Shown here: positions 49,923 through 61,247 of the stretch, piece by piece
Layout: each line of letters starts with the position of its first letter
Position numbering within the stretch: the stretch's first letter is position 1
DNA from: Candidatus Saccharimonadota bacterium
GTDB taxonomy: Bacteria > Patescibacteriota > Saccharimonadia > Saccharimonadales > UBA4665
DNA: 63,210 nucleotides
Assembly: GCA_020427965.1 (NCBI GenBank)
Contig: JAGQNT010000012.1
Span: forward strand, 1-63,210
Direction: 5' to 3'
The notes under the pieces: generated by a model
What the model saw: only the letters and a program-made list of their open reading frames with translations
Databases searched by the model: none
Told to the model about the DNA's origin: nothing
Position numbers and translations under genes: made by a program

Positions 49923-51652
<1,730 letters not shown>

Positions 51653-51669
<17 letters not shown>

Positions 51670-51956: not shown

Positions 51957-52652
51957 ATGAGCGACAGAAAACTAACTACCAAACAAATCAACACACTACT
52001 CATTACTTATAGGTTCAGATTTATAACGACTAATAACCTAGCAAGACATAAACAAATTACACATAACTCAGCATATAATGCCTTAGAAATACTGACGAAT
52101 AATGGCTATTTGGGACGGAAACACAATAAAAGTTACAGGCTACAAAATAAGCCTGCAAGCTATTACTTAAAGCCTCAGGCGGTAATATATCTAAACAAGT
52201 CAGACCTGAATGTAGATAAAGAAGTTCTTAAAAGTCGATATCGAGAGCAGACGAAATCATCTGAGTTTGTAGATCGGCAAGTCGCTATTCATTACGCATA
52301 CTTAGACATCAAACAAAAGCTAGGCGATTCAGCAGAGGTCCTAACTGGAACTGAAATGGCTGGCATTGAGGGCATGATAAAGCCCGTACCGTCACTATTT
52401 ATAAAACCAAAGAAAGGCAAAAGATATTTTGCTGAACTTACGGACAGCCAGCACCTATTTATCGTCAAGAAGCGGATTAGAAAATATATTGATCATTATG
52501 AATCCGACGATTGGGAATTTGAACAGTATCCAGATGTGCACATCTACCGCACCTCAAAAGCTGACCAGCGAAAGCTGAAAGAGTATATCGAAGAAAAAAT
52601 GGATGATGCGTATCTAGATGACGAAGATTTCAATTTCATCATTAAACCTTAA
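51957..52652 (+). CDS. replication-relaxation-like winged-helix protein
   Basis: 231 residues. The N-terminal 70 form a winged helix (TKQINTLLITYRFRFITTNN, NSAYNALEILTNNGYLGRKH), followed by an alpha/beta part with SEFVDRQVAIHYAYLDIKQK and RYFAELTDSQHLFIVKKRIR, as in replication-relaxation family proteins of plasmids and integrated elements, which load or control replication. Strongly charged and AT-rich. The ATG at 51957 follows TATACT closely (10 nt), so it is nearly leaderless. Divergent from the recombinase. Confidence 0.7.
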   Translation: MSDRKLTTKQINTLLITYRFRFITTNNLARHKQITHNSAYNALEILTNNGYLGRKHNKSYRLQNKPASYYLKPQAVIYLNKSDLNVDKEVLKSRYREQTKSSEFVDRQVAIHYAYLDIKQKLGDSAEVLTGTEMAGIEGMIKPVPSLFIKPKKGKRYFAELTDSQHLFIVKKRIRKYIDHYESDDWEFEQYPDVHIYRTSKADQRKLKEYIEEKMDDAYLDDEDFNFIIKP

Positions 52653-52654
52653 AT

Positions 52655-52682
52655 GAGTAGTTTTAAGTCTTGCTCAGGACTT
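52655..52682. repeat. 28-nt repeat with AAGTC...GACTT hairpin, copy 1
   Basis: Begins GAGTAGTTTTAAGTCTTGCT and ends CAGGACTT; 26 of 28 bases match 53175-53202. It lies at the 3' end of the 102-aa gene. On the plus strand it is followed by TGTTTTTA and may also terminate the replication-relaxation gene. Confidence 0.75.
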
Positions 52683-52687
52683 TGTTT

Positions 52688-52996
52688 TTATAAACCAGGA
52701 TAAGAATCCGGACGACCCACAACGTCTTCGTTGAACTCGTCAACCAGCTCTCTAAGTTCTAGTTGCTCGCAATAGTAATTACGTAGCTCAGACGCCAACG
52801 ATACCAACGAATCATCATTGTACCAGTCTGTAATAGTGCAGCTATTATTGATTGACCCACGCATACCACCTCCAAGATAGTTCTGATAGGCGCTCATGAA
52901 TTCACCTTCGTATCCATAAGAACTTAGCTCTATTTCACAGCCACCTCCACGACAGCTATATTTTTCTTTTGTAATTAGTTCTGCGATATTTTCCAT
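52688..52996 (-). CDS. accessory protein, 102 residues, unknown
   Basis: Not recognised. Acidic and tyrosine-rich: IAELITKEKYSCRGGGCEIE, YGYEGEFMSAYQNYLGGGMR, then an acidic helix (LASELRNYYCEQLELRELVD). Three cysteines but no clear metal site. AAGGAAAGG lies before the ATG. It is flanked 5' by the conserved hairpin (53064-53108) and 3' by the 28-nt repeat, the same arrangement as the two-gene unit upstream. Probably a phage/plasmid accessory gene. Confidence 0.6.
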   Translation of the reverse strand: MENIAELITKEKYSCRGGGCEIELSSYGYEGEFMSAYQNYLGGGMRGSINNSCTITDWYNDDSLVSLASELRNYYCEQLELRELVDEFNEDVVGRPDSYPGL

Positions 52997-53063
52997 AGCG
53001 CAATACCTTTCCTTGTTACTGAGAGGGCTTTCTGCCTCTCTGTCGGTGGATATCGGGTAGGCG

Positions 53064-53108
53064 CCAGGAATGTAAAGGTGGAGACTTGTACTACCTTTAT
53101 ATTTCTGG
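53064..53108 (+). other. conserved-loop hairpin, copy 1
   Basis: A 16-bp stem (53064-53079 with 53093-53108) closes the 13-nt loop GGAGACTTGTACT. The identical loop with a different but equally long stem occurs at 53848-53892. Base changes between copies preserve pairing, and the odd pairs are G-T on the plus strand, which favours RNA made from that strand. Confidence 0.7.
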
Positions 53109-53174
53109 TGTCCCCGTATAATGCAAAGGACAGAAGAAGAAAACCACTTACATTTTATCTTCTTACTTTAGGTA

Positions 53175-53202
53175 GAGCAGTTTTTAGTCTTGCTCAGGAC
53201 TT
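53175..53202. repeat. 28-nt repeat with hairpin, copy 2
   Basis: Begins GAGCAGTTTTTAGTCTTGCT and ends CAGGACTT; lies 5 nt from the stop of the 99-aa gene. Partner of 52655-52682. Confidence 0.75.
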
Positions 53203-53207
53203 GAAGC

Positions 53208-53507
53208 TTAAGACCTTTTCAGATCTTTAAACTTTGTAGGTTCGAAGTATCGATCTTTTTCGATTCTCAGGCCTGCTGGACCTATAACTTTGGCCAGTTC
53301 TCTGAGGCAGAAGTAGCCAAGCTCGTCTTCTTGACCTTCGACGAATCCAAAGCAGTAATGCGACCCATCGGATTCCATCGCATACCATGTCCAGCTCGTC
53401 CAAGGCGTGAAGAACTTAAAATAGACGATTTTGTCGTCTAGTTCCACATCTTCTTGGGTGTAGATTAGTGGCATTTTAGCTAATTCTGATTTTGTTAATA
53501 GACTCAT
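53208..53507 (-). CDS. accessory protein, 99 residues, unknown
   Basis: Not recognised. Aromatic-rich, probably beta: IVYFKFFTPWTSWTWYAMES, HYCFGFVEGQEDELGYF, then an amphipathic end (LREL..VIGPAGLRIEKD). The pattern recalls small single-domain DUF2958-type proteins of plasmids (TPWxxWTWY...FGLVxGxExELGYF), an assignment from memory. Follows the 92-aa gene by 10 nt with AAGGAG before its ATG. Its 3' end carries the 28-nt repeat. Confidence 0.65.
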   Translation of the reverse strand: MSLLTKSELAKMPLIYTQEDVELDDKIVYFKFFTPWTSWTWYAMESDGSHYCFGFVEGQEDELGYFCLRELAKVIGPAGLRIEKDRYFEPTKFKDLKRS

Positions 53508-53517
53508 AATATTCTCC

Positions 53518-53796
53518 TTAAATTAATTCTTCGTTGTTATCGATAATTTCTTCCCAGCTAACACATCTGAACGCGTGCACTAGTAAATCCTTCCAGATGC
53601 TTGGGCCGGAGATCTCTCTATTTAGCTGCTCTTCAAGAAAATCTCGAAGCCACTCAGCTTTTCTCCACGCCGGTACATCCAGCTTTAGAGCCTCCAAGAA
53701 AACACTGTAGTTTCCTTGATCGTTTGTAAGCCAAAGAAACGCTAACCACGTTTCACGGTTGCTCCAGCCGTTATAGTTTTGTTCTGTTGATGACAT
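53518..53796 (-). CDS. DUF7249-like phage/plasmid accessory protein
   Basis: 92 residues. YNGWSNRETWLAFLWLTNDQ is the signature of a small family common on phages and plasmids, usually located near antirestriction or single-strand-binding genes. The rest is acidic and helical (AEWLRDFLEEQLNREISGPS). AGGAGG lies 7 nt before the ATG. Co-transcribed with the 99-aa gene. It sits 100 nt from the left direct repeat that bounds the metal module. Confidence 0.7.
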   Translation of the reverse strand: MSSTEQNYNGWSNRETWLAFLWLTNDQGNYSVFLEALKLDVPAWRKAEWLRDFLEEQLNREISGPSIWKDLLVHAFRCVSWEEIIDNNEELI

Positions 53797-53847
53797 TGTT
53801 GTCCTCCTTTACTTTTTGTAACGGAGGTTAATACGCGGAGCCGCATG

Positions 53848-53892
53848 GCAAGGTTGTCAAGGTGGAGACTTGTACTACCTTGACTGCCTTGC
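53848..53892 (+). other. conserved-loop hairpin, copy 2
   Basis: Stem 53848-53863 with 53877-53892 (one T-T mismatch, one T-G pair) around the same 13-nt loop as at 53080-53092. It is 52 nt from the start codon of the 92-aa gene, close to the 68 nt seen for copy 1. Confidence 0.7.
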
Positions 53893-53895
53893 TCG

Positions 53896-53929
53896 GCTCG
53901 TACACTGAGAAACCTACGGAAAGTAAAGG
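53896..53929. repeat. 34-bp direct repeat, left boundary of the metal module
   Basis: Begins GCTCGTACACTGAGAAACCT and ends GTAAAGG. Identical over 34 bases to 61214-61247. Everything between them (about 7.28 kb) forms the CsoR-to-CDF gene set. Confidence 0.9.
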
Positions 53930-61213: not shown

Positions 61214-61247
61214 GCTCGTACACTGAGAAACCTACGGAAAGTAAAGG
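61214..61247. repeat. 34-bp direct repeat, right boundary of the metal module
   Basis: Identical to 53896-53929. TATAAT (61250-61255) right after it drives the next gene, whose ATG is at 61267. Without the insert, the 92-aa gene and this gene would be divergent neighbours. Confidence 0.9.

Follow-up and report, generated by a model that had tools for sequence, protein, structure and literature searches.

The window, the whole 63,210-nt stretch of Saccharimonadota DNA analysed here, contains two hairpins with identical GGAGACTTGTACT loops. They stand upstream of small minus-strand genes within what looks like an integrated element, with a serine recombinase at a tRNA-Glu gene and a replication-relaxation-like homologue, whose family name rests on another locus, L022 (PF13814) (Table 1). 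The hairpins had been predicted from the sequence with a 13-nt loop and a distance of 50-70 nt to the start codon. The loop is indeed the same in both, but two more closing pairs (G-T and G-C) shorten it to the 9-nt AGACTTGTA, and the distances are about 65 nt to the ATG at 52996 and about 45 nt to the ATG at 53796. Two minus-strand units are likewise present, although the one at 53175-53899 holds two genes (DUF7249 and DUF2958) and not one.

Table 1. Features of the hairpin units and the surrounding element (window positions).
Feature	Position	Strand	Remarks
Large serine recombinase of the element	49957-51669	-	At tRNA-Glu 49923-49997
Replication-relaxation-like homologue	51957-52652	+	31% over 218 aa to L033:3468-4235 (another Saccharibacteria element)
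28-nt repeat, copy 1	52655-52682		At 3' end of hairpin 1 unit
102-aa protein of no recognised family	52688-52996	-	Gene under hairpin 1
Outer stem, hairpin 1	53039-53044 with 53129-53134	+	TCTGTC with GACAGA; short
Hairpin 1	53060-53115	+ (structured strand)	Arms 53060-53081 and 53091-53115
Loop, hairpin 1	53082-53090	+	9 nt; invariant 19-nt apex 53077-53095
-35-like TTTATA, hairpin 1	53096-53101	+	Within 3' arm
-10-like TATAAT, hairpin 1	53117-53122	+	6/6; spacer 15; directly outside stem; predicted bubble
28-nt repeat, copy 2	53175-53202		At 3' end of hairpin 2 unit
DUF2958	53208-53507	-	PF11171, 3e-11; second gene under hairpin 2
DUF7249	53518-53796	-	PF23907, 4e-10; first gene under hairpin 2
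Outer stem, hairpin 2	53806-53815 with 53920-53929	+	CCTTTACTTT with AAAGTAAAGG
Additional outer pairing, hairpin 2	53825-53829 with 53911-53915	+	AGGTT with AACCT
Hairpin 2	53838-53899	+	Arms 53838-53865 and 53875-53899
Loop, hairpin 2	53866-53874	+	Invariant apex 53861-53879
-35-like TTGACT, hairpin 2	53880-53885	+	Within 3' arm
-10-like TACACT, hairpin 2	53901-53906	+	4/6; spacer 15; predicted bubble

The 28-nt repeat has the 26/28 identity first noted for it but lies outside the conserved module. It has no stable fold (z -0.2), no further copies were found in the same genome or in the hairpin loci compared with it, and it is particular to the element in the window. A separate 34-nt exact direct repeat (GCTCGTACACTGAGAAACCTACGGAAAGTAAAGG, at 53896-53929 and 61214-61247) takes in the -10 region of hairpin 2 together with its outer stem. 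Genes for a CsoR-like regulator and a copper-type P-ATPase, with related genes, lie between its two copies, as if copper cargo had been inserted at the edge of hairpin 2 with duplication. The 34-nt repeat was considered as a third hairpin and rejected.

Folded as single-stranded DNA (ssDNA), the plus strand reaches -13.3 kcal/mol (z -4.3) at hairpin 1 and -21.4 kcal/mol (z -6.0) at hairpin 2, with none of 200 shuffles equally stable in either case; the minus strand gives z values of -0.95 and -3.9, respectively. The 13-mer alone, with two mismatches allowed, is not significant within the window, and the significance of the hairpin comes from exact 19- and 21-mers with preserved stems in other phyla. 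The hairpin observation is confirmed, and its spread goes far beyond the two window copies. The 19-nt apex GGTGGAGACTTGTACTACC occurs exactly in 37 stretches of the GTDB species genomes (257 Gb, in which we estimate one or two such 19-mers by chance), and IMG/VR gave 11 exact matches to the 21-nt apex AGGTGGAGACTTGTACTACCT. The GTDB carriers belong to Saccharibacteria, Falkowbacteria, Bacillota, Bacteroidota, Planctomycetota, Campylobacterota and Paramagnetospirillum, and at finer resolution to Erysipelotrichales, Thomasclavelia, Clostridiales, Lachnospiraceae, Gallibacter, Saprospiraceae and Sulfurimonas/Arcobacter. No clear mobile context surrounds L021, L024, L032, L046, L055, L053 and L023, and L023 and L053 may be chance 19-mers.

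Among 99 relatives scanned with three mismatches allowed, there were seven exact apex matches (two of them in the window), no single-mismatch match, and no two- or three-mismatch match that folds. Four relaxed-loop scans of IMG/VR gave seven extra loci, none folding, and an earlier relaxed scan gave L058, likewise without a hairpin. Since these mismatch-tolerant scans add only non-folding loci, the invariance of the apex is not only a search artefact. The element is patchy, since no apex copy besides those in the window was found in 240 sampled Patescibacteria genomes. Short-query BLAST, which has limited sensitivity, returned no real match to the hairpin core among 72,556 plasmid records (PLSDB) or 50,697 phage records (INPHARED), and the apex sequence was not found in the literature searched.

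Comparing 38 non-redundant hairpins (near-copies and the non-folding L058 left out), we found that the stems vary while pairing is kept, with a covariation score of 0.441 versus 0.125 in shuffled stems. Over 17 pairs, 87.2% of cells are paired, versus 68.8% when shuffled and 35-48% when partners are slid. Eleven of these pairs change on both sides, and the six closest to the apex are invariant. Such numerous independent compensatory changes bear out the predicted selection on structure. The structured strand is the plus strand, as had been proposed from G-T wobble pairs: the arms alone are more stable there in 33 copies and less stable in four (p 1e-5), in a test with DNA energies, 30-nt arms and a replaced loop that stands in for a count of G-T against A-C pairs. 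Because of this 33 to 4 split with the loop replaced, the wobble pairs in the arms favour the GGAGACTTGTACT strand; the plain tally of G-T over A-C is not significant alone (p 0.11) and leaves the wobble bias suggestive. With the native loop, 37-38 of the 38 copies are more stable on the GGAGACTTGTACT-bearing strand than on the complement, which counts against the hairpin being a structured leader within the downstream gene's mRNA. Such a leader would fit the position of the hairpins, 45-100 nt upstream of start codons, but we hold it to be exceedingly improbable: a search of the coding strand directly upstream of both gene units in the window gave no sigma-70-like site, promoter-like elements lie on the other strand, and an Rfam search of the window returned only tmRNA and tRNA at gathering score.

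An ORF of at least 60 aa begins 30-220 nt off on the opposite strand in 33 of the 38 hairpins (31 with ATG, 21 with SD), at a median distance of 76 nt, so that the hairpin strand is the template strand of the small gene; an ORF lies on the other side of the hairpin in 15 of 38. First or nearby genes include those for ArdcN, DUF7249, DUF2958, DUF3768, RadC, ParA, C5 methylase, SSB and ART-PolyVal. The downstream small gene is often of leading-region type (ArdC N-domain, DUF7249, DUF2958, RadC, ParA or C5 methylase). ArdcN (PF08401) scores over the cut-off in L008 and L047 and slightly under it in L013. Up to four hairpins occur per 8 kb, all on the same strand and each preceding a gene.

This arrangement bears on two other roles for a folded strand. 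The hairpin could mainly be a single-strand origin, where a polymerase or primase makes the primer for copying the incoming strand and gene proximity is incidental. Inoviruses require a minus-strand origin, and F and many rolling-circle plasmids make use of RNA polymerase acting on a folded single strand (PMC4595007). The M13 minus-strand origin and the sso of rolling-circle plasmids and ICEBs1, of which sso1 is described as three stem-loops, are likewise folded strands recognised by RNA polymerase, but they make a primer (PMC4595007). We consider an origin unlikely, because it would need one copy and no gene, whereas the present elements have several copies, each directly upstream of an ORF and many of these with SD. 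An invariant loop on a variable stem, as read by a loop-binding protein, would also suit a site where an HUH enzyme nicks or a recombinase acts, and the CTTG/TAC of the loop is reminiscent of HUH nick sites. That role is nevertheless highly improbable, given up to four copies in 8 kb on one strand, each before a gene, and relaxases and Reps that differ among carriers. Cassette recombination, also raised in the original prediction, was not supported: what is conserved is the loop rather than the arms or ends, and the conserved module does not include the 28-nt element. Similarly, an attC site of an integron cassette was rejected, as an invariant loop with variable arms and base is the reverse of conserved outer R boxes with a variable loop.

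The hairpin strand has a promoter-like anatomy. Its 3' arm starts with TTGA or TTGAC near the apex, and a TATAAT-like hexamer follows 15-16 nt after this element, a spacer below the 17-nt optimum, in a predicted bubble directly outside the stem. The TATAAT match 17-26 nt past the apex averages 4.39/6, versus 3.39 (sd 0.12) in 500 shuffles with a maximum mean of 3.74, and 3.05 on the coding strand; 22 copies with less than 55% identity give 4.27 versus 3.38 (sd 0.16). The -10 and the following 6 nt are predicted to be unpaired at 0.51 and 0.50, with flanks at 0.16 before and 0.33 after, and the outer stem scores 30.6 versus 21.8 (sd 0.84) for permuted flanks. A stable hairpin on the template strand of the downstream genes is joined to a -35/-10 pair rebuilt by the fold on the non-template arm, the -10 match being weak in L004, L015, L023, L036, L053 and Thomasclavelia. 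The -10-like element also speaks against transcription of the hairpin strand into an antisense or other RNA, a possibility that the original prediction had allowed for in the form of a structured RNA opposite to the genes. This strand does pair better, and it doubles as the sense strand for Zot and Rep in inoviruses, but a transcript from the -10-like element, which sits 3' of the hairpin, would exclude the hairpin; the multi-copy Bacillota elements L030 and L051 have essentially no genes, and none of note, on that strand; and Rfam gave no match. We rate such an RNA as no more probable than the leader.

Read as duplex, the -35/-10 pair points away from the genes, and only when the strand folds back does its 5' flank, antisense to the genes, become the template. 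This reverse geometry is the strongest argument for an ssDNA promoter and is hard to account for otherwise. We conclude, with a probability of roughly 0.8, that each hairpin is a promoter that would be confined to the single-stranded state of the element. In a newly entered cell, the incoming strand (on this reading, plus in the window) would fold back, with the inner stem providing a double-stranded -35 region near the apex and the 3' flank a -10 hexamer in a ready-made bubble, closed on its downstream side by the outer stem. Host RNA polymerase would then read the strand's own 5' flank as template, transcribing the small protective genes that lie next to it on the other strand. Second-strand synthesis would abolish the hairpin and leave the duplex -35/-10 facing away, silencing the genes; the RNA may additionally prime second-strand synthesis, as reported for Frpo. 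The hairpin class most likely lets a mobile element switch on protective genes while its DNA is single-stranded on entry; initiation by RNA polymerase at the hairpin, its timing and an anti-restriction role of the uncharacterised genes are what we infer.

In some carriers, the gene layout is consistent with the hairpin strand being the one that enters. Erysipelotrichales and Clostridiales carriers have a PF03432 relaxase with NikA/MobC, and in two relaxase-bearing Bacillota elements the hairpins lie on the transferred strand predicted from the relaxase-NikA layout. In RP4/R64 the nick is upstream of nikA; if the same holds here, the hairpin strand would be the transferred strand in relaxase carriers. 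In six distinct inoviruses (L008/L028, L052, L006, L047, L013 and L056), the hairpin strand carries the Zot-type morphogenesis gene and the opposite strand an ArdcN-like gene. G2P is on the hairpin strand too in five of them, and the 4-kb stretch of L056 showed no G2P. Filamentous phages package the sense strand in the virion, so the hairpin strand of these inoviruses would be virion-sense. Together with the promoter anatomy and gene geometry, these phage and relaxase strand assignments support the earlier suggestion that the hairpin acts as ssDNA in transfer. Copies were also found in a marine tailed-phage lineage (L003/L007, L004/L009/L011) and on one gut-type IMG/VR contig that has tailed-phage genes (L005/L010/L012). 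Neither would be expected to carry an ssDNA promoter, because tailed phages inject double-stranded DNA.

Single-stranded promoters of the Frpo/ssi type are known from F and ColIb-P9 (Masai and Arai 1997; PMC9849209; PMC11541004). In Frpo of F, the folded single strand rebuilds -35/-10, and recipients no longer show early expression once Frpo is deleted (PMC9849209). The present hairpins are similar in lying on the putative incoming strand upstream of leading-region genes, in a fold-rebuilt -35/-10 and in gene types, but differ in having a fixed 19-nt apex across phyla and in occurring also in filamentous phages. In a 19.5-kb stretch of the F plasmid (NC_002483), the site upstream of ssb has a predicted inner hairpin, bubble and outer stem without the apex, and the apex cores GGAGACTTGTA and AGACTTGTACT are absent. 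Because the F site lacks the apex, we file the hairpin as one that would work like Frpo without being a member of the Frpo sequence family. In phage N4, too, a hairpin on the template strand is the promoter; those promoters have short stems and 3-nt loops and use the phage virion RNA polymerase, whereas the present sites resemble host -35/-10 elements. EGeRS1 of pLS20 is similar in being a repeated structured sequence before establishment genes such as ardC but is several hundred nt long, and its authors rated an ssDNA promoter as highly unlikely on the grounds that the non-template strand is the one transferred (PMC8708921).

The invariant loop is not accounted for by a host-promoter model, which counts against that model. 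Because the loop is so widespread, it suggests that a conserved host factor reads it or that it has a DNA fold of its own. We give slightly better than even odds to one sequence-defined class of ssDNA promoters, its invariant apical loop read by a host factor of most bacteria (or folding intrinsically), common to conjugative elements of CPR bacteria, Bacillota and others and to filamentous phages, in which the infecting virion strand would give rise to an ArdC-type anti-restriction protein ahead of the double-stranded stage. Such early expression of anti-restriction from the infecting strand would, to our knowledge, add a new stage to filamentous phage infection. Experimentally documented ssDNA promoters come from a few enterobacterial plasmids, and a searchable 19-nt signature would extend them to elements of the candidate phyla radiation, conjugative elements of Bacillota and filamentous phages. 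Looking downstream of the apex would offer a route to new anti-defence genes, and the invariant loop poses a clear biochemical question.

Several carriers have further features of their own. In the Saccharibacteria loci L022, L025, L033 and L037, a serine recombinase, a replication-relaxation-like gene and a hairpin with its small gene (in many cases DUF7249-like) form a common compact module, and no other relaxase was recognised near it. In the marine tailed phages, the hairpin lies in a divergent intergenic region (L003:4155, L004:2705 and L011:5862, with Terminase_6 and, in L003, an SU10-type portal). On the gut-type contig L005/L010/L012, three hairpins precede genes that also occur in relaxase-bearing elements of Erysipelotrichales. 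ORFs resembling terminase, portal and capsid genes come after these, and the contig is possibly a hybrid of a conjugative element and a prophage. In the copies L024:4018, L021:84 and L030:110, the stems are long and finish in runs of A and T (AAAAAGGCAAGGT...ACCTTGCCTTTTT), and these copies resemble bidirectional terminators with the same loop.
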